From: a virus
Length of the DNA stretch: 64,000 nucleotides
Reading direction: 5' to 3' (one strand)
Virus record (IMG/VR): IMGVR_UViG_3300027969_000084
Span: 1 to 64,000 of that record
The notes below the pieces were generated by a model, which was given only the letters and a program-made list of their open reading frames with translations, did not search any database and was not told the DNA's origin. Shown one piece after another: positions 9,913 through 27,351 of this stretch; within the stretch, counting starts at the first letter, position 1; every line of letters starts with the position of its first letter. Both the position numbers and the translations under genes were made by a program.

Positions 9913-10149
9913 AACAGTTCCCCCCCAATATTCAAAAATATTTATGGACATACCATCTATACAAAAATACATACTAAATTTATGCAGATTTTCTACACAA
10001 CTTTTCATAGGAAAATATGCAGGAAATTGTTGCCAAGTTTTATCACCATTTTTATACAAAAAGTTTACATAAAAATATCTAATACTTTGCTCAATATAAT
10101 ACTTTAGTCTATATTCGTGCAATACCCTTAAAAACCATCTTTTACTCAA

Positions 10150-10706: not shown

Positions 10707-10769
10707 CCAATTATTGCATTTATGGTTACTGATTGTGTATGATGGCATCTATAATTAGGATATGCATAT

Positions 10770-10982: not shown

Positions 10983-10991
10983 GAAATTAAA

Positions 10992-11465: not shown

Positions 11466-11469
11466 TAAA

Positions 11470-12092: not shown

Positions 12093-12137
12093 GATATATT
12101 TAGCATTGATGGTTATTGAATTTGGTGAGAATGAAAA

Positions 12138-12920
12138 ATGAATAATGCTGTTTTTATGTATGATGAAACTCCGGAAGATGAGCTTACGGATATTCCTGTA
12201 GATAATATTCCTGTAGATGATACCGAAAGTAAACAGGATCAGCTTGATTATGCGATATATTCTTTATTAAATAAGATATTTGAGGAATCGAGTACTGATA
12301 AGGCGTTAGTAGATTTGTTTATCAATCCTACGTCGGATGATGGGGTTGAGTATGGTGATGTTATTATTATTCATAGTTCCGATGAATATGAATATGATGC
12401 TGAATATCGAGCCAAGATTGATGCATATGTTAGCGATGAAGGATATGAAGAGGATATAGATTATATTAAGGATTGTATTATTATAGATTCTAATCACAAT
12501 CCTTACAATATTGGGGAGATTGATAGAAATTTGAACATCATGCATGATTATATTATAAAAGCCAAAAATGGTAGTTTTGACATTAGGTTTTCTACCTGTT
12601 TTTATGAGCTTGAATTAATACAAACTAAGGTCGTTTATGCCAACATGGATACTGGTGGCTGGGAAGGGCCGGATAGTATTAGGATTAAAGATAGTTATAA
12701 ACTTTTACCTGTTTATGTTTGTTATTTGGATGTTGGTGGTATGGAAGATGATATTCAATATGATGTTTCTATTGCGGGTATGAATAAATTAATCTCTGAT
12801 ATAGAGACGCATGAAATTTATTGTAAGTTGAATGACACTCTTGTTACGGATTTTGATTTTTCTCATCGTTCTAGAAATATTTCTTTGATTAAGTTTCCTT
12901 GTCCTTGTTGTAGTGAATAG
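12138..12920 (+). CDS. Acidic hypothetical protein, 260 aa
   Basis: Not recognised. Strongly acidic throughout; begins with a repeated DIPVDNIPVDD segment and ends in a Cys-rich FPCPCCSE. Middle part is Tyr/Asp-rich (SSDEYEYDAEYRAKIDAYVS). First gene of the rightward accessory run; the next gene begins 6 nt later. No leader peptide or membrane segment. Confidence 0.75.
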   Translation: MNNAVFMYDETPEDELTDIPVDNIPVDDTESKQDQLDYAIYSLLNKIFEESSTDKALVDLFINPTSDDGVEYGDVIIIHSSDEYEYDAEYRAKIDAYVSDEGYEEDIDYIKDCIIIDSNHNPYNIGEIDRNLNIMHDYIIKAKNGSFDIRFSTCFYELELIQTKVVYANMDTGGWEGPDSIRIKDSYKLLPVYVCYLDVGGMEDDIQYDVSIAGMNKLISDIETHEIYCKLNDTLVTDFDFSHRSRNISLIKFPCPCCSE

Positions 12921-12926
12921 GGGTGG

Positions 12927-13223
12927 ATGATGGCATTAATGAGAAATACTATTCCTGCGAAGACTTCTTTGGATTGTAGGGTTAAGTTTTTATATGATAG
13001 TCCTCTTTCTAAAAATAATTCTACTAATGTAATCTTGCGGTTATTTGGTTTAGTTCCTCTTGAAAATGATAAGTTGTATAATGAAATGCTTACTTATTGT
13101 CGGGCTACATTTAGGGGGTATGTTTATTATGTTGAATATGCATCTGGGAGAAAGTGGGCGATAGAGTTCTTTTTTAAGACTCCTTCTGATGCAATGCTTT
13201 TTATGTTGAGGTGGGGTCAATAG
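12927..13223 (+). CDS. FKLRWG-family small protein, 98 aa
   Basis: First member of the window's family defined by a C-terminal strand-helix ending: here FFFKTPSDAMLFMLRWGQ. The N-terminal part has CRVKFLYDSP and NEMLTYCRATFRGYVYYVEY, matching the family pattern of a helix, a G-x-aromatic strand and the terminal F-x-LRW. Start follows GGGG. Function unknown. Confidence 0.75.
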   Translation: MMALMRNTIPAKTSLDCRVKFLYDSPLSKNNSTNVILRLFGLVPLENDKLYNEMLTYCRATFRGYVYYVEYASGRKWAIEFFFKTPSDAMLFMLRWGQ

Positions 13224-13230
13224 TTTTGAG

Positions 13231-13258
13231 TTGACAATTTAGGATTATTTGTTATTAT
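13231..13258 (+). promoter_or_regulatory. Promoter, TTGACA-N16-TATTAT
   Basis: Shares TTGACAATT and ATTTGTTATTAT with the promoter at 33447-33474, so it is probably a dispersed middle/early promoter class. Confidence 0.75.
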
Positions 13259-13300
13259 TTTTATATAGTTTTGTATCAATAGCATTTATGGAGAATATAC

Positions 13301-13621
13301 ATGTATTTGGTTCGTAATATTGAGAGTAAGAATCTTTTGGGTATGTTTGCATCTCGCAGTATTTCTGGTCTTTTTTCTCAGATTGATTCTGAGACTGATC
13401 CTTTTGAATTTGAATATCTTTTGATCAAGACGGGTGGTTTTATATTTGACGAAGATATTTCGGGAGAATATGTGCCTTATGATGAAGAAAATGAGTCTGA
13501 CGAAGATGTCAGTAGTTTTCCTACTGCAACCATGAATGATTGGCTTTATGACAAGGTTCGTGGCAATCCTTCGGTTTGGAAGAAGTTTACTCGCAAGAAT
13601 CACAATGATTGTTATCGGTAA
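13301..13621 (+). CDS. Hypothetical protein, 106 aa
   Basis: Begins MYLVRNIESKNLLGMFASRS after GGAG. Contains FSQIDSETDPFEFEYLLI and an acidic middle (PYDEENESDEDVSSF), with a basic end. The N-terminus (MYLVRNIxxKxLLGxF) resembles small conserved proteins seen in other myoviruses, but no function is known. The leader TATATAGTTTTGTATCAATAG is repeated before the next gene. Confidence 0.7.
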   Translation: MYLVRNIESKNLLGMFASRSISGLFSQIDSETDPFEFEYLLIKTGGFIFDEDISGEYVPYDEENESDEDVSSFPTATMNDWLYDKVRGNPSVWKKFTRKNHNDCYR

Positions 13622-13625
13622 CGGT

Positions 13626-13655
13626 TATATAGTTTTGTATCAATAGCATTCATGG
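13626..13655 (+). repeat. Repeated leader segment ATAGTTTTGTATCAATAGCATT
   Basis: Near-identical to 13262-13292, before the previous gene; both lie just upstream of start codons. The earlier copy overlaps the leader of the 13231 promoter, so this is probably a duplicated 5' leader. Confidence 0.55.
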
Positions 13656-13665
13656 ATATTTTGAT

Positions 13666-13983
13666 ATGAATGAAGAAGACGATCAAATTGTATTTGTGCA
13701 GGAATATTGGGAAAATATATCGCATGTTAATAATCCATCGGAAGTAGTTCAGTTAGCTTCTGTTAAAGAATTTCCTCATGCTATTGCTTTTATTAAAAAT
13801 CCAAGTGAAAAAGTTCAACTAGCGGCTGTTATGCAAAATAGTTCTGCAATTGGATATATTAAGAATCCAAGTGAAGCAGTTCAAGTAGCGGCTGTTACTG
13901 AAGATGGATGGGCAATTAAATATATTGATAATCCGAGTGATCGGGTTAAGATGCTTGCAGAATTATGTAAGGAACATGTGTGA
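13666..13983 (+). CDS. DUF4116-like NPSE-repeat protein 1, 105 aa
   Basis: Three to four 22-residue repeats of the form NPSEAVQLAAVxQNGxAIxYIK, resembling DUF4116. The N-terminal cap is MNEEDDQIVFVQEYWENI and the C-terminal cap NPSDRVKMLAELCKEHV. Each repeat should form a pair of short helices, giving a small solenoid. It opens a block of ten consecutive paralogues joined by TGATG or ATGA overlaps, so they are probably translated together from one message. Confidence 0.85.
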   Translation: MNEEDDQIVFVQEYWENISHVNNPSEVVQLASVKEFPHAIAFIKNPSEKVQLAAVMQNSSAIGYIKNPSEAVQVAAVTEDGWAIKYIDNPSDRVKMLAELCKEHV

Positions 13984-14495
13984 TGACTGAAGAAGAGCAA
14001 ATTGCATGTGTGAAGGAACATTTAGGAAATATCCGATACATCAAGAATCCATCTGAAGCAGTTAAGTTGGCTGCTGTTACACAATATGCATTGGCAATTC
14101 GATATATTAAGAATCCATCTGAAGCAGTTAAATTGGCGGCTGTTGCTCGATGGGGCGATGCGCTTCAATATATTAATAATCCGAGTGAAGCAGTTCAATT
14201 GGCTGCGGCCACTCAATATGGAACGGCAATTCAATATATTGATAATCCAAGTGAGCAAGTTCAATTGGCGGCTGTCATTGGAAATGGATATGCAATTAAA
14301 CATATCAAGAATACAATTGATCTAGTTAAATTGGCTGCGGTTGCTCAAAATGGAAAGGCAATTCAATATATTAAGAATCCGAGTGAAGAAGTTCAATTAG
14401 CGGCTGTTACTGAAAATGGCTGGGCTATTCAATATATTGATAATCCGAGTGATCGGGTTAAGATGCTTGCGGAACTATGCAAGGAATATGCATGA
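13983..14495 (+). CDS. DUF4116-like NPSE-repeat protein 2, 170 aa
   Basis: About six full repeats plus the NPSDRVKMLAELCKEYA cap. Start ATG overlaps the upstream stop (TGATG); a GTG one codon earlier is possible. The fifth repeat is the most diverged (KNTIDLVKLAAVAQNG). N-terminal cap MTEEEQIACVKEHLGNIRYI is shared by most later members. Confidence 0.85.
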   Translation: MTEEEQIACVKEHLGNIRYIKNPSEAVKLAAVTQYALAIRYIKNPSEAVKLAAVARWGDALQYINNPSEAVQLAAATQYGTAIQYIDNPSEQVQLAAVIGNGYAIKHIKNTIDLVKLAAVAQNGKAIQYIKNPSEEVQLAAVTENGWAIQYIDNPSDRVKMLAELCKEYA

Positions 14496-15139
14496 TGACT
14501 GAAGAAGAGCAAATTGCTGCCGTTACTAAAGATGCATGGGCAATTCAATGGATAGATAATGCAAGCGAAGTCGTGCAATTAGCGGCTGTTACTAATCATG
14601 TGTATGCAATTCAGTATATAAAAAATCCAAGTGAAGCTGTGCAATTGGCTGCGGTAATGAACGATGGAGAGGCAATTCGAGATATTAATTGTCCATCTGA
14701 AGCAGTTCAGTTGGTTGCTGTCACGCGAGATATAGATGCAATTCAATATATTGGAAATCCAAGTGAACTAGTTCAATTAGTTGCTGTTAAACAAGACGGT
14801 TTTGCAATTCAATATATCAATAATCCATTAGAAACAGTTCGATTGGCGGCTGTTAAAAAACATGGGTCGTCAATCCAATATATTAACGATCCAAGCGAAG
14901 CCGTTCAATTATCGGCTGTTACTCAAAATGGACATGCAATTTATTATATTAATAATCCATCTGAAGAAGTTCAGCTAGCGGCTATTATGCAAAATAGTTC
15001 TGCAATTGCATATATTGATCATCCATCTGAAGAATTGCAAGTAGCGGCTGTTACTCAAAATGGTTGGGCTATTCGTCATATAAAGAATGCATCTGAACGG
15101 GTTAAGATTCTTGCTGAATTATGCAAGGAATATGCGTGA
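14495..15139 (+). CDS. DUF4116-like NPSE-repeat protein 3, 214 aa
   Basis: Eight to nine repeats, the longest of the contiguous block. Starts MTEEEQIAAVTKDAWAIQWI at a TGATG overlap. Segments such as AAIMQNSSAIAYIDHPSEEL recur almost unchanged in the protein at 16616, evidence of recent duplication or gene conversion. Confidence 0.85.
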   Translation: MTEEEQIAAVTKDAWAIQWIDNASEVVQLAAVTNHVYAIQYIKNPSEAVQLAAVMNDGEAIRDINCPSEAVQLVAVTRDIDAIQYIGNPSELVQLVAVKQDGFAIQYINNPLETVRLAAVKKHGSSIQYINDPSEAVQLSAVTQNGHAIYYINNPSEEVQLAAIMQNSSAIAYIDHPSEELQVAAVTQNGWAIRHIKNASERVKILAELCKEYA

Positions 15140-15519
15140 TGACTGAGGAAGAGCAAATTGCTTACGTAACGAAAAATGGAGAGAATATCCGGCGTATTAA
15201 GAATCCATCAGAATATATTCAATTGGTTGCTGTTCGAAGAAATGGTTTTGCAATTGAATATATTGATAATCCATCCGAGGAAGTTCAAATGGCTGCTATT
15301 GAAAAAAATGCATATACCCTCGAATATATCAAGAATCCATCTGAAGCAGTTCAATTAGCTGCTATTACTAAAAATGGATATGCAATTCTATATATTAAGA
15401 ATCCATCCGAAGAGTTTCAATTAATTGCAGTTCAACAAAATGGATATGCAATTCATTATATTGACAATCCAAGTGACCAAGTTAAAGTTATGGCTGAAAT
15501 GTGCAAGAGATATTCATGA
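15139..15519 (+). CDS. DUF4116-like NPSE-repeat protein 4, 126 aa
   Basis: Five repeats between an MTEEEQIAYVTKNGENIRRI cap and a NPSDQVKVMAEMCKRYS cap. Coupled to its neighbours by TGATG (5') and ATGA (3') overlaps. Confidence 0.85.
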   Translation: MTEEEQIAYVTKNGENIRRIKNPSEYIQLVAVRRNGFAIEYIDNPSEEVQMAAIEKNAYTLEYIKNPSEAVQLAAITKNGYAILYIKNPSEEFQLIAVQQNGYAIHYIDNPSDQVKVMAEMCKRYS

Positions 15520-15869
15520 CCGAATCCGAAAAAGTTAGATATGTGTATATGACTGAAGAAGAACAAATAGCACATGTTCAGAAACATTGGGAAAATATCC
15601 GATATATTCATAATCCATCCGAAGAGGTTCAATTAGCTGCTGTTTCTTTTTATGGCCCCGCCATTCAATGGATTAATAATCCATCTGAAGCAGTTAAAAT
15701 AGCGGCTGTCACGCAACGTGGATTTACTGTTATCAATTTTGATGATCCAAGTGAAGCGGTTCAATTAGCTGCGGTTACTCAAAATTGTGGGGCAATTACA
15801 TTTATTAAAAATCCGACAGATAGTGTTCTGGTTCTTGCAAAATTACTCAAGTACATGCCTAATGACTGA
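15516..15869 (+). CDS. DUF4116-like NPSE-repeat protein 5, 117 aa
   Basis: Four repeats. Unusual N-terminus MTESEKVRYVYMTEEEQIAH: the standard MTEEEQ cap is preceded by 11 residues that look like a partial duplicate of the cap, and either ATG (15516 or 15549) could be used; 15516 keeps the ATGA overlap. The C-terminal cap is diverged (TDSVLVLAKLLKYMPND). Confidence 0.8.
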   Translation: MTESEKVRYVYMTEEEQIAHVQKHWENIRYIHNPSEEVQLAAVSFYGPAIQWINNPSEAVKIAAVTQRGFTVINFDDPSEAVQLAAVTQNCGAITFIKNPTDSVLVLAKLLKYMPND

Positions 15870-16176
15870 AGAAGAAAAAATTGAACATGCGGCAGCATAT
15901 TGGGGGTCGATTAAAGATATTGAAAATCCATCTGAAGCAGTGCAATTGTCTGCGGTTCAATACTCTGCGTATTCTATTACATATATTCAAAACCCATCTG
16001 AAGTAGTTCAATTGGCGGCTGTTACACAAAGTGGAGACGCAATTGCATATATTGATAATCCAAGTGAAGAAGTTCAATTAGCTTCCGTTATACAAAATGG
16101 TTGGGCAATTGAATTTATTAAAAATCCATCTGATCGTGTTAAGATCGTTGCTGAATTATGCAAGGTTCATCCATGA
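15862..16176 (+). CDS. DUF4116-like NPSE-repeat protein 6, 104 aa
   Basis: Four repeats. Starts MTEEEKIEHAAAYWGSIKDI inside the last 8 nt of the previous gene. The C-terminal cap is NPSDRVKIVAELCKVHP. Confidence 0.85.
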   Translation: MTEEEKIEHAAAYWGSIKDIENPSEAVQLSAVQYSAYSITYIQNPSEVVQLAAVTQSGDAIAYIDNPSEEVQLASVIQNGWAIEFIKNPSDRVKIVAELCKVHP

Positions 16177-16619
16177 CTGAAGAAGAAAAAATCGCATATG
16201 TGACAACACATTGGCATGCAATTGGGCATATTGAGAATCCATCTGAAGCAGTTCAGTTGGCGTCTGTTAATAATCATGGATATACAGTTAAATATATTAA
16301 GAATCCAAGTGAAGCAGTTCAATTGGCGGCTGTTACACAAAGTGGATATGCAATCCATTATATTAATAATGCTAGTGAAGAAATTAAATTGGCTGCTGTT
16401 AAACAAGACGGTTTTGCAATTCAATATATCAATAATCCATCCGAAGCGGTACAACTGGCTGCTGTAAATAATCTTGGACATGCAATTCGGTATATTAAGA
16501 ATCCATCTGAAGAAGTTCAAATAGCGGCGATTATACAAGATGCACGGGCAATTAATGTAATTGATAATCCATCCGATACTGTTAAAATTATTGCAGAAAT
16601 GTGCAAGAGATATTCATGA
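16173..16619 (+). CDS. DUF4116-like NPSE-repeat protein 7, 148 aa
   Basis: Six repeats. Starts MTEEEKIAYVTTHWHAIGHI at an ATGA overlap. One repeat carries NASEEIKLAAVKQDGFAIQY, and the last cap is NPSDTVKIIAEMCKRYS. Confidence 0.85.
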   Translation: MTEEEKIAYVTTHWHAIGHIENPSEAVQLASVNNHGYTVKYIKNPSEAVQLAAVTQSGYAIHYINNASEEIKLAAVKQDGFAIQYINNPSEAVQLAAVNNLGHAIRYIKNPSEEVQIAAIIQDARAINVIDNPSDTVKIIAEMCKRYS

Positions 16620-16999
16620 CTCAAGAAGAACAAATGGCCAATGTCCAACGAAATGGGCGGCTCATTCTAGGTATTGATAATCCATCCGAAGAAGTTCAGT
16701 TGGCGGCTGTTCGACAAAATGGATATGCTATTCATTTTATTGATAATCCATCCGAAGCAGTTAAATTAGCCGCTGTTAGGCAAAATGGATATGCAATTTA
16801 TTATATTAAGAATCCATCTGAAGAAGTTCAGCTAGCGGCTATTATGCAAAATAGTTCTGCAATTGCATATATTGATTATCCATCTGAAGAATTACAATTA
16901 GCTGCGGTTACGCAAAATGGATGGGCGATCCATATGATTGAAAATCCGAGTGAACGAGTTAAGATTATTGCTGAACTTTGCAAGGTACATGATGACTGA
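16616..16999 (+). CDS. DUF4116-like NPSE-repeat protein 8, 127 aa
   Basis: Five repeats. N-terminal cap differs slightly (MTQEEQMANVQRNGRLILGI). Internal repeat VQLAAIMQNSSAIAYIDYPS nearly duplicates one in protein 3, and the cap matches protein 9. Confidence 0.85.
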   Translation: MTQEEQMANVQRNGRLILGIDNPSEEVQLAAVRQNGYAIHFIDNPSEAVKLAAVRQNGYAIYYIKNPSEEVQLAAIMQNSSAIAYIDYPSEELQLAAVTQNGWAIHMIENPSERVKIIAELCKVHDD

Positions 17000-17468
17000 A
17001 GAAGAACAAATGGCTAATGTCCAACGAAATGGGCGGCTCATTCAATTTATTAAGAAGCCATCTGCGGCGGTGCAACTCGCTGCTATCCAGCAAAACGCAT
17101 GGGCAATCCATTACATTAAAAATCCTAGCAAAAAGTTGCAGTTGATTGCTATTAAAAAACAACCTAAAGTAATCAAATATATCAATAATCCATCTGAAGA
17201 AGTTCAGTTGGCTGCGGTTACTCAAAGTGGCTGGGTGATCTATGATCTTAAGAACCCATCGGAAGATGTTAAACTTGCCGCCGTTTCATCTGCTGGTCGG
17301 TCGATAAAATACCTCAATGACCCAAGTGAGAAAGTTCAACTAGCCGCAATTCAACAGGACTGTAATGCAATTAATTATATTGTAAATCCATCCGATGTTG
17401 TTCTAATTTTTCATGCCATGTGTTATGATTATCGTGATGAGGATGAGGGCGACGATGGCGATGACTGA
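16992..17468 (+). CDS. DUF4116-like NPSE-repeat protein 9, 158 aa
   Basis: Six repeats with more divergence than its neighbours (NPSKKLQLIAIKKQPKVIKY). It ends in an acidic tail RDEDEGDDGDD not seen in other members. Start overlaps the previous gene by 8 nt; an ATG one codon earlier is equally possible. Confidence 0.8.
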   Translation: MTEEEQMANVQRNGRLIQFIKKPSAAVQLAAIQQNAWAIHYIKNPSKKLQLIAIKKQPKVIKYINNPSEEVQLAAVTQSGWVIYDLKNPSEDVKLAAVSSAGRSIKYLNDPSEKVQLAAIQQDCNAINYIVNPSDVVLIFHAMCYDYRDEDEGDDGDD

Positions 17469-17712
17469 AGAAGAACAAATTACCTATGTTAAGGAAGATT
17501 GGATGAAAATCCGATATATCGAGAATCCATCTGAGGCTGTTCAATTAGCTTCAGTTACTGAACATCCATTTTCTATTCAATTTATTAAAAACCCATCCGA
17601 AGAAATTAAATTAGCTGCTGTTACAAAAAGCGGATGGGTTATTACATGTATCAAGAATCCATCGGATAATTTAAGGATACTTGCTGAACTATCTAAGCTA
17701 CCTATTCAATAA
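17461..17712 (+). CDS. DUF4116-like NPSE-repeat protein 10, 83 aa
   Basis: Shortest member, two to three repeats between MTEEEQITYVKEDWMKIRYI and NPSDNLRILAELSKLPIQ. Last gene of the contiguous block; a terminator follows. Confidence 0.85.
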   Translation: MTEEEQITYVKEDWMKIRYIENPSEAVQLASVTEHPFSIQFIKNPSEEIKLAAVTKSGWVITCIKNPSDNLRILAELSKLPIQ

Positions 17713-17721
17713 AAAGTTTTC

Positions 17722-17760
17722 GAGGATGAAACCGTTTTCCATATTTCACCCTCTATTTTT
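17722..17760 (+). terminator. Intrinsic terminator
   Basis: Stem GAGGATGAAA (17722-17731) with TTTCACCCTC (17744-17753), followed by TATTTTTT; ends the DUF4116-like operon facing the convergent glycosyltransferase gene. Confidence 0.7.
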
Positions 17761-18689
17761 TATTTGATTATTACATTATCTCTTTTATCATTTTTATCGC
17801 CATCAATGAGTTTTAGTCCGTATTCATTGATTTCATTGTTAACAACGAAACTGGCTTTTCTCTTCAATGGATTATTCTTAAACGGGCTATAATCGACATA
17901 ATGGTGCCAACGATTAAACTTCCATACAACCGAAGCCACATTAGGATATGCATCTTCTAGCATTTTGGATTTGGCTAGTGTACCTTCGACTTCATAAAAA
18001 TCCTTATTGTTTCCACCAGCCATGCGCTGAGTAGTAACCTTTCCTTGTAGGAAAGCATTCAATTGAATGGTTGCCCATCCGGCGGTCAATACATCTAAGC
18101 ACAATATGGTATCTTCGTTATATCGTCCGCGCCATTTGAAAGGTATATCATTACGAATCAGAAGGCATGAATAGATTCTTGTATTAAGGCAATATGGTCT
18201 AGCTCTAGAATCAGATTTACAAAAAGAGTAATAGTTGAATCCGGCGATTGCTAGGTTTTCATATCTATCTACAAAATCTTCTGTTGCCACGAAGTTAACA
18301 TTTGTCCGCATAGGGCATTTAATGTTTCTATTCAGACGGTGGAAATCATCGATATTATCATCTAATACCCAATGCCACTTATGTCCTTCTGCAATAGAAT
18401 GATCCCATGCAAAGTTTCGCGCAGGACCAGGACCTGTACTTTTGGTAAAACCATGATCGTCTAGTAGTTCATATTCTTCTTTATACTTCTTAGGAAGTAT
18501 CAGAAGTCTATCTGCTCCGACGACCTTAGCGTATTCGTCAAACTCTTGTTCTTCTACGATAACCCTGAATGGAACGCCGAGCCTAGTAAGCGCTCTATTG
18601 GTTGTCATATTGGTATATCGACCTTTTGATACGATATACACTGGATAGCGGTTTTCCTGTTTATTCTTGTATCCAGCGTTTTGCTGCAT
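17760..18689 (-). CDS. TET-associated-type glycosyltransferase (TAGT), 309 aa
   Basis: Glycosyltransferase-A-like protein of the phage TAGT/GREB1-related family. PVYIVSKGRYTNMTTNRALT (residues 17-36) is followed by VPFRVIVEEQEFDEYAKVVG, GPGPARNFAWDHSIAEGHKW and WVLDDNIDDF, a DxD-type motif. Further on lie GRYNEDTILCLDVLTAGW and TQRMAGGNNKDFYEVEG. Relatives are predicted to sugar-modify hydroxymethylated bases in phage DNA. Start follows AGGAAAG and overlaps the upstream gene by 29 nt, indicating an operon. Confidence 0.8.
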   Translation of the reverse strand: MQQNAGYKNKQENRYPVYIVSKGRYTNMTTNRALTRLGVPFRVIVEEQEFDEYAKVVGADRLLILPKKYKEEYELLDDHGFTKSTGPGPARNFAWDHSIAEGHKWHWVLDDNIDDFHRLNRNIKCPMRTNVNFVATEDFVDRYENLAIAGFNYYSFCKSDSRARPYCLNTRIYSCLLIRNDIPFKWRGRYNEDTILCLDVLTAGWATIQLNAFLQGKVTTQRMAGGNNKDFYEVEGTLAKSKMLEDAYPNVASVVWKFNRWHHYVDYSPFKNNPLKRKASFVVNNEINEYGLKLIDGDKNDKRDNVIIK

Positions 18690-18924
18690 TCTTTCCTCGC
18701 TCTAATTCTGGATACCAAGCACTCTTAGTTTTTGGTGTTAATTTTTGGCCAATCAATTTAGAAAAAGCATCTAAATCTTCTTGATTGTCGAAACGAAAAA
18801 TAATCTTAGCGAATGGTGGTTTATTTTCCTGAACAAACTCAGGCATTTCTACCCATTCTTCGGTTGATGATGTATCATCCTGATTATCATCAAGATCACC
18901 CAACCAATCGTCCAATGATGACAT
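18661..18924 (-). CDS. Small protein co-transcribed with TAGT, 87 aa
   Basis: Acidic N-terminus (MSSLDDWLGDLDDNQDDTSS), then KIIFRFDNQEDLDAFSKLIG and TPKTKSAWYPELERG. This strand-helix plus TKSxWYP pattern occurs in many phages as a small protein of unknown function. The FRFDNQEDLDAF portion also resembles the C-terminal strand-helix of the FKLRWG family. It shares a transcript with the glycosyltransferase. Confidence 0.7.
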   Translation of the reverse strand: MSSLDDWLGDLDDNQDDTSSTEEWVEMPEFVQENKPPFAKIIFRFDNQEDLDAFSKLIGQKLTPKTKSAWYPELERGKNAAKRWIQE

Positions 18925-18964
18925 AACTATCTCCAGATAATTTTAAATATGTTTCACAATATCG

Positions 18965-18983
18965 GACACGATATAATCGTGTC
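18965..18983. promoter_or_regulatory. Inverted-repeat operator candidate
   Basis: Perfect inverted repeat GACACGAT-ATA-ATCGTGTC. It overlaps the -35 (TTGACA, minus strand 18980-18985) and spacer of the leftward promoter for 18924, and lies between two divergent units, as expected of a repressor site. Confidence 0.6.
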
Positions 18984-19009
18984 AATAATAAAATGGGTTA
19001 TGGTTGATG

Positions 19010-19037
19010 TTGCATTTTTTGATAGTTTTGCTATACT
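19010..19037 (+). promoter_or_regulatory. Promoter, TTGCAT-N16-TATACT
   Basis: Rightward sigma70-like boxes about 35 bp before the gene at 19073. Confidence 0.6.
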
Positions 19038-19072
19038 GAAAAAGATTTATACATGGAGAAATAGCAGGCAAT

Positions 19073-19351
19073 ATGGATGAAGATATCGAAATCATTACTC
19101 TTGATGATCAGCAGACGGAACGTCTTGTTGTAATTGGTGTTGACTGGGACGATAATCTCGACCGTCCTGCACACAATGCTATATTTACTACTGAAGTTGA
19201 CGAATGGTGTTTAGAAAATCTTTTAAAATCAACACGTATTCGTTGTGGCAGGCATTTTTATAGTTTACAGCCGTATGATTATCATTATGAGATTGATGTA
19301 GAGTTTGGTTCTGAAGATGATTTGTTTTTGTTTACCTTGAGGTGGCTTTGA
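19073..19351 (+). CDS. FKLRWG-family small protein, 92 aa
   Basis: Ends VEFGSEDDLFLFTLRWL, the family's terminal strand-helix. Acidic N-terminus (MDEDIEIITLDDQQTERLVV) and a central helix DEWCLENLLKSTRIRCGRHF. Coupled to the next member by a TGATG overlap. Confidence 0.75.
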   Translation: MDEDIEIITLDDQQTERLVVIGVDWDDNLDRPAHNAIFTTEVDEWCLENLLKSTRIRCGRHFYSLQPYDYHYEIDVEFGSEDDLFLFTLRWL

Positions 19352-19674
19352 TGGAAGATTTTGAATCAAATCCGGTCGAGGCACAGACTGAAGCTGAAAT
19401 AAAATATTTTACAATGTTGCTTTCTCGGCTTGATTTTCTTAAGAATCAGGATCGATGGTTAAATATTCTCTCAAAAGATAGAGAATCTGATTTGTATGAT
19501 AATGTTGTGGAAATTAACATCAAAGAATCGAATGCGGTTGTAGAAAATATCAATTGGTGGCTGCGCGATAATGGTGGGAATTGGGGCTGCGGTTTTAATT
19601 TCTCAAATTTTACAATTTCTTTCAATTTTGAAGATAATAATACTGCTATTCATTTTAAGCTAAATTGGGGCTGA
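19351..19674 (+). CDS. FKLRWG-family small protein, 107 aa
   Basis: Starts MEDFESNPVEAQTEAEIKYF and ends FNFEDNNTAIHFKLNWG. Has the VENINWWLRDNGGNWGCGF segment, which corresponds to the W-x-x-x-NLxGxW motif of other members. A TGATG overlap joins it to the previous gene. Confidence 0.75.
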   Translation: MEDFESNPVEAQTEAEIKYFTMLLSRLDFLKNQDRWLNILSKDRESDLYDNVVEINIKESNAVVENINWWLRDNGGNWGCGFNFSNFTISFNFEDNNTAIHFKLNWG

Positions 19675-19701
19675 TTGTGTTTAAGCAATGGATATTTGGT
19701 A

Positions 19702-20217
19702 ATGACTGAAGAAGAAAACCTTGAACGTGTAAAGAAAAATGGATGGGAAATTCAATATATTGAAAATCCATCAGAAGAAGTACAACTAGCTGCGGTTAAA
19801 CAACGTGGATGGGCAATTCGATATATTAAGAATCCATCAGAAGCCGTTCAATTGGCTTCAGTTCAACAAAATGGATATGCTATTAAATGGCTTAAGAATC
19901 CATCCGAAGAATTACAAATGATAGCGGTTCTACAATTCTCTGGTTTGACAATCGAAAATATTGAGAATCCAAGTGAAGAAGTTCAATTAACTGCGGCCAA
20001 ACAAAATGGGGCAGTTATTGAATGGATTAAAAATCCGAGTGAAGAGGTCCAGTTGGCTGCTGTTACTAATAATGGCTGGTTCGTTAAATATATTAATAAC
20101 CCGTCTGAAGCAGTTCAATTAGCTGCGGTTACTGAAAATGGTTGGGCCATTAAATATATTGATAATCCTACTTACCGAGTCAAGGTACTTGCCGAATTAT
20201 GCAAGGATCATGACTGA
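19702..20217 (+). CDS. DUF4116-like NPSE-repeat protein 11, 171 aa
   Basis: Seven repeats between MTEEENLERVKKNGWEIQYI and NPTYRVKVLAELCKDHD. The chosen ATG matches the family cap; the frame extends 27 nt upstream. Separated from the main block by the glycosyltransferase operon and two FKLRWG genes; its 3' end overlaps the convergent gene by 10 nt. Confidence 0.85.
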   Translation: MTEEENLERVKKNGWEIQYIENPSEEVQLAAVKQRGWAIRYIKNPSEAVQLASVQQNGYAIKWLKNPSEELQMIAVLQFSGLTIENIENPSEEVQLTAAKQNGAVIEWIKNPSEEVQLAAVTNNGWFVKYINNPSEAVQLAAVTENGWAIKYIDNPTYRVKVLAELCKDHD

Positions 20218-20690
20218 TTAGTTACATACATGCTCCAGAAAGGCCCTTTAATAGGGTCATCTTCTCTTTCAGGGAATAAATATTCATTCAATCTCGCAAC
20301 CCAATCAGGAGTTAGGTGATGATTGCGAAGTCCTCCGGTAGGGAAGATATGAACTTCTTGGTGTTGGGTGCCTTCAAGTTGCTGAAGAGCTACCATACGA
20401 TTCCTGCCTTCATGCCCTGTAATTCTTGCTGGACGAGACAAATCACCTTCTTCCCATTCATCTGGGATAGTAACGAGTAAGAATGGTGCTGCTAGATGTC
20501 CACCTTCTTGTACATGTTGTATCATGCTCTTGACACTAATCTGTTCGCCTAATGGTGCGGCCAACTTAAGGAAAGTATATGGTTTCATTCTGACGCGAAG
20601 ACCCTTGTAGTCAACATTGCGATTATCAGCCACTGCGCCCCAACCGTTTTCATTGTCCATTTGATGTTCGAAGATTTCGTGCGCTCGCAT
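20208..20690 (-). CDS. ParB/Srx-like protein with leader, 160 aa
   Basis: Begins MRAHEIFEHQMDN, a capsid-targeting-like leader. The body contains RVRMKPYTFLKLAAPLGEQI and RITGHEGRNRMVALQQLEGT, the GHEGRxR box of ParB/sulfiredoxin-fold phage proteins, then HQEVHIFPTGGLR. A perfect TATAAATA on the minus strand (20717-20724) suggests late expression. Catalytic activity unproven; a virion-associated role is inferred from the leader and promoter. Confidence 0.6.
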   Translation of the reverse strand: MRAHEIFEHQMDNENGWGAVADNRNVDYKGLRVRMKPYTFLKLAAPLGEQISVKSMIQHVQEGGHLAAPFLLVTIPDEWEEGDLSRPARITGHEGRNRMVALQQLEGTQHQEVHIFPTGGLRNHHLTPDWVARLNEYLFPEREDDPIKGPFWSMYVTNQS

Positions 20691-20716
20691 TTATTATTCT
20701 CGTTTTGATTGTATAC

Positions 20717-20724
20717 TATTTATA
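20717..20724 (-). promoter_or_regulatory. T4-type late promoter TATAAATA
   Basis: Exact T4 late-promoter octamer 26 bp upstream of the ATG at 20690. Confidence 0.65.
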
Positions 20725-20746
20725 CGCTTGATTTTTTAACCAGATT

Positions 20747-20929
20747 ATGATATTATTTAATTACGATATGGCGGCGAGGGCAGAGGAAAATCGTAACTTC
20801 ATCGTTGGACAGACTGCTGAAATTTTATGCGATGTGATCACGCAGAACCAAGATGGTACATATTCGTTGCGTTTCCCACGCTTTGTACGCTTTAGAGATG
20901 ACAAGGAGAACCAGAATGACTCAATATAG
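20747..20929 (+). CDS. Hypothetical protein, 60 aa
   Basis: MILFNYDMAARAEENRNFIV at the N-terminus, then a beta-like NQDGTYSLRFPRFVRFRDDK segment. No ribosome site is obvious; the internal ATG at 20768 is an alternative start. Overlaps the next gene by 14 nt. No family recognised. Confidence 0.5.
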   Translation: MILFNYDMAARAEENRNFIVGQTAEILCDVITQNQDGTYSLRFPRFVRFRDDKENQNDSI

Positions 20930-21164
20930 AATCAAAAAGTTAGGCCCAAAACTTTACGAAGTTCAAAAGAAAGTACTTTTGTATTGGGGTGATGCTTTTA
21001 GTACCATGACGGGTGTGGCGAACATGAGGCGGTTAGAGAATAGACAGTTTGACTCCTATCATGCAGCAAGATCATATTTAAAAAACTATCTAGAAAAGGG
21101 TATGAATGTAAAGAAGAACGTTCCAGCATATTTTTATCCACCCTTTCCCGATAACGAACCATAA
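20916..21164 (+). CDS. Hypothetical protein, 82 aa
   Basis: Starts MTQYRIKKLGPKLYEVQKKV after AAGGAG at 7 nt, which excludes the longer reading. Basic; contains FDSYHAARSYLKNYLEKGMN and ends YFYPPFPDNEP. No family recognised. TAATG overlap with the membrane protein downstream. Confidence 0.7.
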   Translation: MTQYRIKKLGPKLYEVQKKVLLYWGDAFSTMTGVANMRRLENRQFDSYHAARSYLKNYLEKGMNVKKNVPAYFYPPFPDNEP

Positions 21165-21472
21165 TGAACATTAAACTTAAAGCAGCATTGTACACCATTA
21201 TTCCATACCTCGGTACAGCGATATGGCTGTTTTCATTGGCAACTTGGTATGAACCAACACTGTTATTCACTCTGTTTTTTCTTTGGTTTGTCGCACTACC
21301 ATTCGCTATTTACAATCTCGTATACCTTAATCTAAAAGGTAAGCAGAATAGAGCAGATGACCAACAACGGATGAAAGATTTTATAGCCGAGAATAAAAAA
21401 GCAAGTGACAGGGTACAACAAACGGTTAACGCCATGCTAGACAGGCATCGTGACCGTTCGCGCAGGTCATAA
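21164..21472 (+). CDS. Two-helix membrane protein, 102 aa
   Basis: Two hydrophobic spans (ALYTIIPYLGTAIWLFSLAT and LLFTLFFLWFVALPFAIYNL), then a basic coiled-coil-like tail (RMKDFIAENKKASDRVQQTV). Likely an inner-membrane protein with a cytoplasmic tail. No lysis-cassette context (no endolysin nearby), so a holin role is not supported. Confidence 0.65.
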   Translation: MNIKLKAALYTIIPYLGTAIWLFSLATWYEPTLLFTLFFLWFVALPFAIYNLVYLNLKGKQNRADDQQRMKDFIAENKKASDRVQQTVNAMLDRHRDRSRRS

Positions 21473-21498
21473 ATTATTACCAATTGGGATTTTTAAAT

Positions 21499-21867
21499 AT
21501 GAATGATCGCAATGACGACGGGCGTCTTAAGTTCGTGGGTTATAATGGGCATTATTCTAGTTATGATATTTGGGGGCAGACGATCCGTTCCGGCGAGGAG
21601 CATCTAATTCACCCATCTTTTGCTAAATTGTATATTCAAGATGATAAACAAATTAGTTTATATACTAAAGAATGGAGGGTCTCCGTAGGAGCCGATGATA
21701 CTATAACAATCTTCAAAACCGAAGATGGACCCAATGGTGCTAAAGAAACTGAATTGGTTGTTAATGCCTTGCGGAATCCATTGGATGAAAGAAACCGATT
21801 GGCTATTAAAATCATGGACTGCGACGATGATACTTTGATGCGCTTGAAGTTGTTCTTAGGGGAATAA
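21499..21867 (+). CDS. Hypothetical protein, paralogue of next gene, 122 aa
   Basis: Starts MNDRNDDGRLKFVGYNGHYS. Its C-terminus (NPLDERNRLAIKIMDCDDDT, LMRLKLFLGE) aligns with the next protein's DLEDERSRLALKVLKADEET ending. Both endings also resemble the terminal F-K-L motif of the FKLRWG family. The beta-rich first half (DIWGQTIRSGEEHLI) matches the same position in the paralogue. Unknown function. Confidence 0.7.
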   Translation: MNDRNDDGRLKFVGYNGHYSSYDIWGQTIRSGEEHLIHPSFAKLYIQDDKQISLYTKEWRVSVGADDTITIFKTEDGPNGAKETELVVNALRNPLDERNRLAIKIMDCDDDTLMRLKLFLGE

Positions 21868-21910
21868 ATTATGAAACTTTCCACACACGCTAACATGAAA
21901 GAGTTTTAAA

Positions 21911-22237
21911 ATGTCTCATATCACCAAAATAGGTAATTATAAGTATAGCTTGTGGGGCAATGATTCCAATAAAAGCTTATTTGTTAATGAACATTTTTGC
22001 GTAATAAACATTGGTGGAGATAATGAATGGGACATCGAGTTTATGCAAGATGGTTCAGATTTTAGCATTCATAGAACTACTTTCACTAAAAATAAATCTT
22101 TGGCTGATATTAATGAAGACATTTCTTTTTTTACTAATGCCATTAAGGATTTAGAGGATGAACGCTCTCGTCTTGCCTTGAAAGTGTTAAAAGCCGATGA
22201 AGAAACATTGTTTCGCATGAAGTTATTTTTCGAGTAA
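21911..22237 (+). CDS. Hypothetical protein, paralogue of previous gene, 108 aa
   Basis: Starts MSHITKIGNYKYSLWGNDSN and ends TLFRMKLFFE. Shares its overall plan with 21499-21867: a beta-rich first half, an acidic DERxRLAxK helix and a terminal hydrophobic strand. Probable tandem duplication. Confidence 0.7.
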   Translation: MSHITKIGNYKYSLWGNDSNKSLFVNEHFCVINIGGDNEWDIEFMQDGSDFSIHRTTFTKNKSLADINEDISFFTNAIKDLEDERSRLALKVLKADEETLFRMKLFFE

Positions 22238-22257
22238 ATTATGCAGAACGATTTGCC

Positions 22258-22578
22258 ATGAATATTTTTGATAACTTACCGTCTTATATCGGTGGGGATG
22301 TTGCCTCTCGTGCAATATATCGCGTTTATGACAAAAAATGTATGCCCGATCTTGTTTATAAGAATATTCAAATTTACCAAAACGATTGGTTGAAAAAGAA
22401 CTTGCCATATAGTTTTGGCGTTGATGATGCCATGTATTTAAACTTTCCTGATGAAGAATTGCTACCGTGGATTATTGATAATTTGCGAGGTGCTTGGCAT
22501 GCTAGAAAATCTCCGTATGGCTATATAAGATTTGAAGATAAGAGCGATGCTGCATTATTTAAATTGCGATGGTTTTGA
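22258..22578 (+). CDS. FKLRWG-family small protein, 106 aa
   Basis: Typical member: LPWIIDNLRGAWHARKSPYG, then YIRFEDKSDAALFKLRWF at the end. TGATG overlap with the next gene. Confidence 0.8.
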   Translation: MNIFDNLPSYIGGDVASRAIYRVYDKKCMPDLVYKNIQIYQNDWLKKNLPYSFGVDDAMYLNFPDEELLPWIIDNLRGAWHARKSPYGYIRFEDKSDAALFKLRWF

Positions 22579-22862
22579 TGATTACATTCGTTATTGGAAC
22601 TTCTAGTGAACGGGCGAGTGATATTTTTAATCAACGATTTGCTATTGATCTCAATCCTAATGTAAAATCAAAACGAACTTCTGTTGTGTTTTACAATGCC
22701 ATGGCTTCTATTATTGGCGATTTTGACATTACTGTTCCAAAAAATAATAAGTATTATCCCTTATTTTGTTTTGGTAGCAAGAGTTTTGATAATGACGCAG
22801 ACGCCATAGCATTTAAATTGAAGTTTAGTGAATATATCATTGATGAGATAATTCATGACTAG
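22578..22862 (+). CDS. FKLRWG-family small protein, 94 aa
   Basis: Starts MITFVIGTSSERASDIFNQR. The family motif SFDNDADAIAFKLKFSEY is not terminal here: 12 further residues (IIDEIIHD region) follow, an exception within the family. Confidence 0.7.
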   Translation: MITFVIGTSSERASDIFNQRFAIDLNPNVKSKRTSVVFYNAMASIIGDFDITVPKNNKYYPLFCFGSKSFDNDADAIAFKLKFSEYIIDEIIHD

Positions 22863-22889
22863 TTTAACGAAAAATGAACTCATACAACA

Positions 22890-23105
22890 ATGAACCATAT
22901 ATTAGACATAGGCGTTAATGATTACCATACTTGGATCAATTTCGCCAAAAGCCTCGCATGTTTTAATGATTCGGACGATAAACTTAATAAGAAGCTGGCC
23001 GAATATAATGGAAAAGTTTATATAGATAATCGCAACTATAAATATAATTTTGTTGAATTTAAGTCAGAAGCTGATTTGGTTTATTTTAAGTTGGTTTTTG
23101 GCTGA
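22890..23105 (+). CDS. FKLRWG-family small protein, 71 aa
   Basis: Short member. MNHILDIGVNDYHTWINFAK opens and VEFKSEADLVYFKLVFG closes. The central helix and G-x-W element are reduced. Confidence 0.7.
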   Translation: MNHILDIGVNDYHTWINFAKSLACFNDSDDKLNKKLAEYNGKVYIDNRNYKYNFVEFKSEADLVYFKLVFG

Positions 23106-23126
23106 GATTCCTATATGATATAGGTC

Positions 23127-23393
23127 ATGGCTGTCATATTTAAAAATATCACTCATTTATTAGTATCTCGCATTAGTAGCGATAAAGTTCTCTATGGATG
23201 CCAACCATTTGTCAATTTATCCCATTGGGTTTGTTTAAATCAGGAAATTGAAGAATGGATGGATATGAATATGAAAAGAAAGTCAGGAATTAAAGTAAAA
23301 TATTTTACGACTAATAAAACTATTAAACCTCGTTCATTAATAAGTTTTGAGAATGAAAACGATGCTGTCTTATTCAAGATGAGATGGTTATGA
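23127..23393 (+). CDS. FKLRWG-family small protein, 88 aa
   Basis: Ends ISFENENDAVLFKMRWL. The helix NQEIEEWMDMNMKRKSGIKV corresponds to the family's central helix. ATGA overlap with the next gene. Confidence 0.75.
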   Translation: MAVIFKNITHLLVSRISSDKVLYGCQPFVNLSHWVCLNQEIEEWMDMNMKRKSGIKVKYFTTNKTIKPRSLISFENENDAVLFKMRWL

Positions 23394-23806
23394 AATTATC
23401 CAATCGATCTATTGCCAAGGTTATCATGTTTGCATTTCTGAACAAAGATGAAACCCTTCCTAATTATACACGAATGGATACTCGCGATATTTCGCAAGTG
23501 GTTAGTTTTCATTGTTTGAGTTTTACTAATCTGACTTGGAAACAGAAGAAAAATCTTGTACCAGTAGGAACTACATTAGATCGTGTTACTAGATTTCTTT
23601 TAGCTAATGGATGGTTGAGATATGAACAGGCCGCAATATATTATTTAAGCGATGGTCTTATTGAGGCGGTAAAATCTGGAGCCATAAGTTCGGTTGATGA
23701 TTTATTTTGTGACGATCATATCATTGCGGTACATTGCATGATGTTTAATATTAAACTAAATCCAGCGTTTTCTGATGATGATTCTAAATTTGTGTTGCAT
23801 CATTGA
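23390..23806 (+). CDS. Hypothetical helical protein, 138 aa
   Basis: Starts MKLSNRSIAKVIMFAFLNKD at an ATGA overlap. Mostly helical, no FKLRWG ending. Contains TTLDRVTRFLLANGWLRYEQ and DGLIEAVKSGAISSVDDLFC. No family recognised; the single odd gene inside a run of FKLRWG members. Confidence 0.65.
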   Translation: MKLSNRSIAKVIMFAFLNKDETLPNYTRMDTRDISQVVSFHCLSFTNLTWKQKKNLVPVGTTLDRVTRFLLANGWLRYEQAAIYYLSDGLIEAVKSGAISSVDDLFCDDHIIAVHCMMFNIKLNPAFSDDDSKFVLHH

Positions 23807-23821
23807 TAATTGGAGATAATC

Positions 23822-24121
23822 ATGGCAGAGATAAGCGCGTTTGATCTTTTAGCTAATATGGAACTGGCAAATAACCTCAAATATTTGGAGAAGTTGTTTT
23901 CAAAACCTCCTGTACGCTATTCGAACTATGATCATACGGTTGACATTTTAATTCAGAATAAGTTGTATAATAGTTTAGAAAACCATTTAGTGTGGCTTGA
24001 TACGAATAGTCTTGGGTCATGGGATTATAATTTTACTGGATTTTATTCTGATACAACCTCAATCTCTTTTTATTTTGAGAATGAGCTTGCGTCTATTCAT
24101 TTCAAGATGGCATTCGGTTAA
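23822..24121 (+). CDS. FKLRWG-family small protein, 99 aa
   Basis: Starts MAEISAFDLLANMELANNLK after GGAG and ends FYFENELASIHFKMAFG. Its N-terminal helix resembles that of 19351-19674. Confidence 0.75.
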   Translation: MAEISAFDLLANMELANNLKYLEKLFSKPPVRYSNYDHTVDILIQNKLYNSLENHLVWLDTNSLGSWDYNFTGFYSDTTSISFYFENELASIHFKMAFG

Positions 24122-24132
24122 GGAATCTCTTG

Positions 24133-24582
24133 GTGACTGAAGAACAAAAACTCGATCTTGTTAAAAATAGTGGATATGCACTAGCTTATATAAAGAACCC
24201 ATCTTTAGAGGTGCAATGGACTGCTATTCAACGTGATGGAAGCGCTATAGCATATGTCTATAACCCATCAGAAGATTTAAAGCTTGCGGCAGTTAAACAA
24301 AATGGTATTGCTATTCGCCATATAAAGAATCCATCCGAAGAAATGAAAAATATTGCGGTTCTTTCTGTAGGAGGAGCAATAAAATATATTGAAAATCCAT
24401 CAGAAGAATTGCAAATGGTGTCTGTATCACAAAATGGCTGGGCAATTCAGTATATTAAGAATCCATCTGAAGCTGTTCAAATAGCTGCGGTTATGAACGA
24501 TGCATGGGCAATTCAATACATCAGAAATCCATCAGAACAAGTTAAGATACTTGCTGAATTATGCAAGGTTTATGATAAATGA
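24133..24582 (+). CDS. DUF4116-like NPSE-repeat protein 12, 149 aa
   Basis: Six repeats from a GTG start (VTEEQKLDLVKNSGYALAYI) to the cap NPSEQVKILAELCKVYDK. Repeats are more diverged at the N-terminus (NPSLEVQWTAIQRDGSAIAY) than in the main block. Confidence 0.85.
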   Translation: MTEEQKLDLVKNSGYALAYIKNPSLEVQWTAIQRDGSAIAYVYNPSEDLKLAAVKQNGIAIRHIKNPSEEMKNIAVLSVGGAIKYIENPSEELQMVSVSQNGWAIQYIKNPSEAVQIAAVMNDAWAIQYIRNPSEQVKILAELCKVYDK

Positions 24583-24902
24583 CTGAAGATATTTTAGAGA
24601 ATGCAAGAGTTATTCTCAAGATATATGATTTTGATGCAATAATTGAAGACCGCTCTGATCAATTCAATGAACGGTGGGGATGGGATATTGATGACAATTA
24701 TGTATTGATTAAAAATCCAAAATATATTAAACCATATGTTCTTTTGTACGGTCACGTTAGATTTGTTAAAGATCGGCGGCTTTATAAAAAAAACAGTTAT
24801 TCTTATAAAAAAAGTTATTCTAATCAGCAATATTACTCATCTCCCGAAAAATTATTGGAAGGTGTTAATCGGCTTGTTCTAAAGAAAAGTATGATTGATT
24901 AA
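24579..24902 (+). CDS. Hypothetical basic protein, 107 aa
   Basis: Begins MTEDILENARVILKIYDFDA through an ATGA overlap with the NPSE gene. The body has no repeats; a Tyr/Ser/Lys-rich stretch (YKKNSYSYKKSYSNQQYYSS) precedes the C-terminal helix. Not recognised. Confidence 0.65.
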   Translation: MTEDILENARVILKIYDFDAIIEDRSDQFNERWGWDIDDNYVLIKNPKYIKPYVLLYGHVRFVKDRRLYKKNSYSYKKSYSNQQYYSSPEKLLEGVNRLVLKKSMID

Positions 24903-24922
24903 TTTTATAATTGTGTTATTCT
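24895..24922 (+). promoter_or_regulatory. Promoter, TTGATT-N16-TATTCT
   Basis: Sigma70-like boxes 23 bp before the largest NPSE gene. Confidence 0.55.
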
Positions 24923-24944
24923 CAATAGGATTATGGAGAACGCA

Positions 24945-25973
24945 ATGACCGAAGAAGAACAACTGTTATCTGTTCAAGAAAATGGATTTAAGATAGGGTA
25001 TATCGAGAATCCATCCGAAGCTGTGCAAATGGCTGCGGTCACCCAGCACGGGCTATCCATCCAATATATTGAAAGCCCATCAGAAGCAGTTCAAATAGCG
25101 GCGGTTATTCAAAACAATTTGGCAATTTATTACCTCAATAATCCTAGCGATAAAGTGAAAGTGTTATCCGTCATGTATAGCAGTGAGCCAATTGACGGTG
25201 AATGGTTGATTCGTAATTTTGCTTTGGATATAATTAATATATTAAGCGAAGAAACTCAATTGCATATTGTATCTACTGCGAATTTTAGTACTATTAAACG
25301 ACTATTTTCGAATATCAAGAACCCATCCGAAGATGTTCAAATAGCTGCTATTACAAAAAGTTCATATGTAATCGAGCATATCGGAAATCCATCCGAAGCG
25401 GTTCAATTGGCTGCTGTTACTACTGTTGGAGCGGCAATTGCATATATTATAAATCCATCAGAAGCGGTTCAATTGGTGGCTGTTCAACAAGATGGGCGGG
25501 CAATTCAGTTTATCAAAAACCCATCTGAGGCTGTTCAGTTAGCCGCTGTCACCAAAAATGGTTGGGCAATTGAACATATTGAAAGCCCATCAGAAGCAGT
25601 TAAAATAGCTGCGGTTAGTCAAGATGCATGGGCAATTGGCTGGCGGATTACGAATCCATCTGAAGCAGTTAAATTAGCTGCGGTTACTCAAAATGGGCGG
25701 GTAATTCAGTTTATCAAAAACCCATCAGAAGCAGTTCAATTAGCTGCGGTTAACCAACATGGTTTGGTAATTGAATATATAATATCCAAAGGAATTACCC
25801 CAAGTGAAGCTGTTCAATTAGCTGCGGTTAGTCAAGATGGAAGTTCAATTGAGTATATTAAAAATCCATCCGACGCGGTTCAGTTGGCATCTGGGAATGG
25901 AGTTCTTTTTATTGCACCATCTGCGGCAGTTAAGCTAGCATCACTCTGCGCATACAATGAGAAAGTAGTATGA
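24945..25973 (+). CDS. DUF4116-like NPSE-repeat protein 13 (largest), 342 aa
   Basis: About thirteen repeats. The array is interrupted near residues 80-125 by a non-repeat segment (SSEPIDGEWLIRNFALDIIN), and two repeats carry insertions (GWRITNPSEA; YIISKGITPSEA). The C-terminal cap is weak (APSAAVKLASLCAYNEKVV). It starts after GGAG with its own promoter, unlike the coupled members. Confidence 0.85.
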   Translation: MTEEEQLLSVQENGFKIGYIENPSEAVQMAAVTQHGLSIQYIESPSEAVQIAAVIQNNLAIYYLNNPSDKVKVLSVMYSSEPIDGEWLIRNFALDIINILSEETQLHIVSTANFSTIKRLFSNIKNPSEDVQIAAITKSSYVIEHIGNPSEAVQLAAVTTVGAAIAYIINPSEAVQLVAVQQDGRAIQFIKNPSEAVQLAAVTKNGWAIEHIESPSEAVKIAAVSQDAWAIGWRITNPSEAVKLAAVTQNGRVIQFIKNPSEAVQLAAVNQHGLVIEYIISKGITPSEAVQLAAVSQDGSSIEYIKNPSDAVQLASGNGVLFIAPSAAVKLASLCAYNEKVV

Positions 25974-27053: not shown

Positions 27054-27102
27054 GTGATGATTTTATTGGTAATATATTTTCAAAATACATAAAGGCTTGA
27101 CT

Positions 27103-27351
27103 ATGGGCTATATGCTTTCTCGATCATCTGAACTCCGAAACAAAAAGTTGCGTTTCCGCGCCGAAGGGATATTGCATAATAATGGTATCGAACGAGCTAG
27201 TTATTACGATATGAAAAAATGGGCTAAAGAAAACTGCAAAGGCGGTTTTTACTATAAAAGAATAATTTTTTCGTATGGGATTGACGCACGTATTCCATTT
27301 TTATTTGTTCATGAAGATGATGCATTATTTTTTAAATTAAGGTTTGGTTGA
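27103..27351 (+). CDS. FKLRWG-family small protein, 82 aa
   Basis: Starts MGYMLSRSSELRNKKLRFRA 7 nt after AAGG. KKWAKENCKGGFYYKRIIFS matches 32883-33218 (KKWCKENVSGGFYVSIDL). Ends FVHEDDALFFKLRFG. TGATG overlap with the next member. Confidence 0.8.
   Translation: MGYMLSRSSELRNKKLRFRAEGILHNNGIERASYYDMKKWAKENCKGGFYYKRIIFSYGIDARIPFLFVHEDDALFFKLRFG

Follow-up and report, generated by a model that had tools for sequence, protein, structure and literature searches.

The DUF4116 repeat family and its gene expansions in large viruses are already known. An alpha-solenoid fold has been predicted for the family through contact-based modeling (PMC8078820), and its Pfam entry (PF13475) carries no assigned function. 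Among giant viruses, Klosneuvirus, Hokovirus, and Marseillevirus LCMAC201 encode several DUF4116 copies each. Salicola phage SCTP-2 and Agrobacterium phage Atu_ph07 carry several to many paralogues per jumbo genome, and those examined are annotated as hypothetical proteins. A comparable expansion of another repeat family is the ankyrin “accordion” of Bodo saltans virus, which comprises 148 genes, mostly in directional tandem and with recent duplications, and whose authors infer an arms race (PMC5871332). Here, we describe a 64,000-nucleotide (nt) stretch of viral DNA (the window; positions 1 to 64,000 of the 69,695-base IMG/VR record IMGVR_UViG_3300027969_000084) that contains 13 intact DUF4116 genes, ten of them in a single row.

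The window resembles SCTP-2 and Atu_ph07 in the number of paralogues and in their predicted fold, but in those phages the genes are dispersed over several places in the genome rather than lying in a row of ten that appear to be coupled. With Bodo saltans virus it shares numerous solenoid genes in directional tandem, whereas the repeat family is different and the 148 ankyrin genes lie at the genome periphery; the array described here is set apart by whole-unit conversion (seen in relatives), by overlapping genes, and by its occurrence in a phage. We propose, with a probability of roughly 0.5, that the 13 genes encode small alpha-solenoid binding proteins without cargo, a family specific to its lineage that unit exchange and selection have diversified and whose likeliest targets are host proteins. 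The coupled row of DUF4116 genes, the unit conversion, the selection pattern, and a phage function were not described in the literature searched, which left most subscription journals outside its coverage; what is new, as far as found, is the combination of a coupled phage row with whole-unit conversion and with diversifying selection at particular positions.

Organization of the solenoid genes

All 13 reading frames are open, as a preliminary description of the window made from its sequence alone had proposed. Ten genes occupy positions 13666 to 17712, and the other three lie downstream, as follows:

13666..13983, + strand, g1, DUF4116 solenoid, 105 amino acids (aa), 3 full units
13983..14495, + strand, g2, DUF4116 solenoid, 170 aa, 6 full units
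14495..15139, + strand, g3, DUF4116 solenoid, 214 aa, 8 full units; modeled structure
15139..15519, + strand, g4, DUF4116 solenoid, 126 aa, 4 full units
15549..15869, + strand, g5, DUF4116 solenoid, 106 aa, 3 full units; alternative start at 15516
15862..16176, + strand, g6, DUF4116 solenoid, 104 aa, 3 full units
16173..16619, + strand, g7, DUF4116 solenoid, 148 aa, 5 full units
16616..16999, + strand, g8, DUF4116 solenoid, 127 aa, 4 full units
16992..17468, + strand, g9, DUF4116 solenoid, 158 aa, 6 units, the final one weak
17461..17712, + strand, g10, DUF4116 solenoid, 83 aa, 2 full units; last of the apparently coupled row
19702..20217, + strand, g11, stand-alone DUF4116 solenoid, 171 aa, 6 units
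24133..24582, + strand, g12, stand-alone DUF4116 solenoid, 149 aa, 5 units
24945..25973, + strand, g13, longest DUF4116 solenoid, 342 aa, 12 units, with a nonrepeat stretch in the middle of the protein

Each protein consists of an N-terminal cap (MTEEEQ-like), a run of units, and a C-terminal half-unit cap (NPSDRVKxLAELCK-like). A position-specific scoring matrix retrieved 67 full 22-residue (66-bp) units with the consensus NPSEAVQLAAVTQNGWAIQYIK across the 13 proteins, compared with 0.005 per set in residue-shuffled copies of the same proteins. Independently of this matrix, Tandem Repeats Finder detected a 66-bp period over 13.8 to 17 kb, which bears out the period given in the preliminary description; its count of about 80 units requires the 13 C-terminal half-units to be added to the full ones. 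The two shared caps that it reported do recur, with variation: the N-terminal cap reads MNEEDD in g1, MTQEEQ in g8, and VTEEQK in g12, and an exact AELCK is present in 7 of the 13 proteins.

Adjacent genes of the row overlap by 1 nt (g1/g2, g2/g3, and g3/g4), by 4 nt (g6/g7 and g7/g8), or by 8 nt (g5/g6, g8/g9, and g9/g10). The g4/g5 junction depends on the start chosen for g5, with a 29-nt gap for the start at 15549 and a 4-nt overlap for the in-frame ATG at 15516. These junctions refine the TGATG/ATGA overlaps of the preliminary description. Two further elements are as follows:

14474..14497, + strand, g2/g3 junction, with AAGGA inside the C-cap codons TGC AAG GAA, a few nucleotides 5' of the next ATG
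13231..13258, + strand, possible sigma-70 promoter (TTGACA-16-TATTAT, with TG before the second hexamer, 11 of 12 matches), 5' of the gene that precedes the array

AAGGA within the C-cap codons also precedes g2 and g4, and CAAGG precedes g7 and g9. Because AAGGA sits a few nucleotides before the next ATG, the C-cap codons may double as a ribosome-binding site for the following gene. The possible promoter is the top-scoring site of the region in a promoter scan, yet the total number of sites found was at chance level.

Family membership and predicted fold

The assignment to DUF4116 made in the preliminary description was confirmed by matches to PF13475 of 60.1 bits for g3 (E value, 1.5e-16), 48.0 bits for g11, and 42.8 bits for g13, all well above the gathering threshold of 24.9, and PF13475 was matched in none of 14 control genomes. 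DUF4116 was the only domain above cutoff in these three proteins. The HEAT repeat model (PF02985) stayed below its threshold, with 21.4 bits versus 23.5 for g11, and no F-box domain was found beside the solenoid. More generally, no additional domain above cutoff was found in the window proteins tested, nor in nearly all scanned relatives. One relative (L146, positions 113 to 4831) encodes a 1,572-aa protein with 11 DUF4116 units and, after these, a weak cytidyltransferase-like match.

AlphaFold, with the 13 paralogues as input, predicted a regular two-helix alpha-solenoid with a predicted local distance difference test score (pLDDT) of 96.6, in which helix A spans unit positions 4 to 13 and helix B spans positions 15 to 20. 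Neither a PDB sequence search nor Foldseek retrieved a significant match among natural solved structures. The best weak Foldseek matches were the armadillo (ARM) repeats of importin-alpha (E value, 0.048; query TM-score, 0.22), which do not support an armadillo fold; HEAT and armadillo proteins share the two-helix solenoid plan, but HEAT repeats are longer than the 22-residue unit. Sequence matches in the PDB to designed TIM barrels were rejected as likeness of repetitive composition, for which the structure search gave no fold support. Predicted viral structures (BFVD) did match strongly and include Atu_ph07, A0A248S entries (which, judging from the accession series, are presumably SCTP-2), and DUF4116 proteins of giant viruses. 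The giant viruses share the same solenoid, with TM-scores of up to 0.91, but they have eukaryotic hosts, and two of the matching proteins bear an F-box annotation, a domain that the phage proteins do not have.

Selection at defined positions of the unit

Positions 16 and 19 of the unit, which vary more in the window than any others, were tested out of sample in 42 other groups. The ratio of nonsynonymous to synonymous differences (pN/pS) was determined for pairs of units of one gene that are at least 85% identical, with the pS of all codons as the denominator and intervals obtained by bootstrap over groups. Positions 16 and 19 gave a pN/pS of 2.61 (1.77 to 3.53), compared with 0.43 (0.34 to 0.54) for positions outside the six most variable, and this outcome was stable at identity cutoffs of 80% and 90%. 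In these relatives, the unit frame is under purifying selection and change is favored at positions 16 and 19.

The two positions lie one turn apart on helix B, with position 22 next, and from the helix assignment in the model the three would form one exposed stripe. The variable surface suggested by the preliminary description is supported in relatives as regards selection, and the exposure of the stripe is a prediction of the model.

Exchange, gain, and loss of units

Recombination between units is most evident in pairs of related contigs. Over a 1,419-nt open reading frame, L119 and L131 differ at 34 positions, all confined to two tracts of 58 and 62 nt, and the remainder is identical. In each tract, one allele is an exact copy of another unit within the same gene. 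The flanks shared around the tracts measure just 15 + 7 and 8 + 4 nt, which disfavors an ordinary assembly jump, and the two tracts are read here as gene conversions that show recombination between units. Whole units can also be lost or gained. L114 and L127 have flanks that are 99.3 to 99.7% identical, but L127 is without 198 bp, corresponding to exactly three in-frame units. The junction unit of L127 is chimeric, fusing the start of one unit with the end of a different one across 7 shared nucleotides, and since its sequence is missing from L114, a simple assembly collapse is unlikely. Pairs whose contigs stop inside the array (L122/L156 and the end of L154/L155) were left out of these comparisons.

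In the window itself, one pair of units is identical between two genes:

14954..15019, + strand, g3 unit 8, identical to g8 unit 3 at 66 of 66 nt
16811..16876, + strand, g8 unit 3, identical to g3 unit 8 at 66 of 66 nt

The flanks of this pair are near 80% identity, and the shared unit appears to be the trace of a recent exchange between genes. The second-best pair across genes is 89% identical. Mean unit identity is 0.619 within genes and 0.630 between genes, and the best match lies in the same gene for 8 of 69 units, with 5.9 expected, so that units do not cluster by gene. This pattern fits long-term shuffling that, except for the g3/g8 pair, is not recent. Near-identical units in different genes, from which the preliminary description had derived ongoing recombination, come down to one pair in the window against a between-gene mean of 63%; recombination between units is shown by the L119/L131 tracts and, for the window, by that pair and the lack of clustering by gene. 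Its suggestion that repeat number might vary between isolates is borne out among relatives by the three units of L114/L127. Unit-number variation is real, though not constant.

Source phage and distribution of relatives

The helicase of the window has its nearest relative in Atu_ph07 (53% identity), with other jumbo myoviruses next, and its NAD synthetase is likewise closest to Atu_ph07 (46% identity). For these reasons, the window is assigned to a jumbo myovirus genome related to Atu_ph07. A close DNA relative of the array was not found among named phages. Window positions 54786 to 64000 have a 99.7% identical counterpart over 9,215 gap-free bases in contig L105, which comes from another metagenome and does not extend to the array; at this identity L105 can be assigned to the same virus species. 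No contig spanning the array itself was found for a strain-level comparison, and the upstream gene at 12138 to 12917 retrieved no relatives when used as the query.

A single scan of IMG/VR yielded 166 confirmed stretches encoding relatives. Matching stretches number 30 in SCTP-2, 6 in Atu_ph07, and 27 in a 435-kb contig; a 118-kb contig also has 27, mostly inside 15 kb. Bacterial genomes contain relatives as well. About a dozen DUF4116 genes, whose caps are of a different type, extend over 15 kb of L152 (contig G011, positions 335 to 15130), another phage contig. Large phages and giant viruses both commonly carry relatives. Caps resemble each other within a contig but differ from contig to contig, and each phage lineage therefore seems to have expanded its own solenoid set.

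Neighboring features

A second family of about 13 small proteins (71 to 127 aa) with a C-terminal “FxxExDAxLFKLRW”-like motif is interspersed with the solenoid genes, some members having overlapping starts. Its members lie in the following intervals:

12927-13223, second small-protein family
19073-19674, second small-protein family
21484-24121, second small-protein family
27097-27934, second small-protein family

The ten members tested gave no significant PHROG match, their alignment is weak, and the structure model is poor (pLDDT, 59.5). Positions 17760 to 18996 encode a TET-associated glycosyltransferase (PF20691, 154.5 bits) and a small neighbor, with 81 to 82% DNA identity to L025 and L036. 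This block looks like a mobile cassette, since the two contigs share nothing else with the window at the DNA level. Positions 41695 to 46789 encode the NAD synthetase and a nucleotidyltransferase/NUDIX-like protein, which suggests an NAD-making gene cluster that could counter NAD-depleting defenses. Two noncoding regions, at 8016 to 8826 and 10469 to 10596, are dense in short repeats (CAACCTAGGGTAGAGTA; CGCAACTTTTTC; ATTAGTACTAA).

Proposed role and alternative explanations

Judging by the gene overlaps and by AAGGA within the C-cap codons, the ten genes of the row would be produced together from a single, translationally coupled message. Recombination, both within a gene and from gene to gene, would swap units, and only whole units would be gained or lost, so that frame, caps, and fold stay intact. 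Selection would preserve the frame and favor change at positions 16 and 19 (and 22), on one face of the second helix, and by this route the family would keep yielding new binding surfaces. The face bearing these three positions is the probable contact surface. The solenoids would then sequester or block host proteins, above all defense or regulatory ones. We consider a role as binding proteins whose surface diversifies quite probable; that their targets are host proteins has about even odds, defense proteins in particular being suggested by analogy. This assignment of targets draws on the selection pattern, on two giant-virus parallels (F-box/DUF4116 proteins and the ankyrin accordion), and on the solenoid-only makeup. 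A more specific version, in which whole-unit conversion along the coupled row keeps every recombinant foldable and expressed while two or three positions per unit tune each solenoid to a different host defense protein, is tentative.

Several observations weigh against the proposal that these are diversified binders of host proteins. Among the units of the window, overall pN/pS falls below 1, and synonymous sites have diverged too far for the test; selection is hence shown for the family and not for these 13 genes. Unit number is unchanged in most near-identical groups. The two-unit difference between L115 and L121 was rejected as a sure unit loss, since L115 contains a 197-nt exact repeat and assembly collapse is possible. 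PADLOC returned no family match for two solenoids and eight other window proteins. Finally, L165 (positions 6479 to 8929) encodes an 816-aa protein in which a baseplate-hub-like and transglycosylase SLT domain comes after the DUF4116 units.

This last protein, an exception that joins the solenoid to a baseplate-hub lysin, speaks for the main rival explanation, namely, that the solenoids are associated with the virion or tail and recognize varying cell-surface or cell wall structures, or are injected with the DNA. Diversifying selection is, moreover, usual in receptor-binding proteins. The proteins of the array, however, are small and have neither trimerization nor virion domains, and the examined DUF4116 genes of Atu_ph07 (about gp219, gp364, and gp371, numbers that are approximate because they were counted from gp215 as the major capsid protein) lie outside the three virion gene clusters of that phage, at coding sequences 31 to 76, 170 to 215, and 284 to 329 (PMC6102473). 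A virion role is considered unlikely. We give a similarly low rating to targets belonging to competing phages or to mobile elements that share the cell, as in superinfection exclusion. Large phages compete in mixed populations, and the same evidence of diversification applies, but no feature favors a rival phage over a host target, and the two are indistinguishable on present data.

Two hypervariable positions per helical-repeat unit, one helical turn apart, also recall a modular nucleic acid-binding code of the TALE or PPR kind, with 16 and 19 as specificity residues. Against such a code, all 13 proteins are acidic (isoelectric points of 4.4 to 5.7). Residues 16 and 19 combine in 202 different ways across 965 units, without settling into a small closed set, and the two positions bear little net charge. 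Together, these features make this reading improbable. Less probable still is neutral or selfish growth, in which recombination multiplies functionless units. Tandem repeats recombine easily and unit number does vary, but the 13 frames are all open, and neither a constrained frame nor a pN/pS above 1 at positions 16 and 19 is expected of neutral repeats.

If the solenoids are diversified binding proteins, the array would be a bacterial-virus counterpart to the giant-virus solenoid gene sets that have been linked to host conflict, and its relatives provide direct evidence that units are converted and lost and that selection acts on particular positions. DUF4116 would thereby become a testable set of binders, and the family may be a source of antidefense proteins and a natural binding scaffold.

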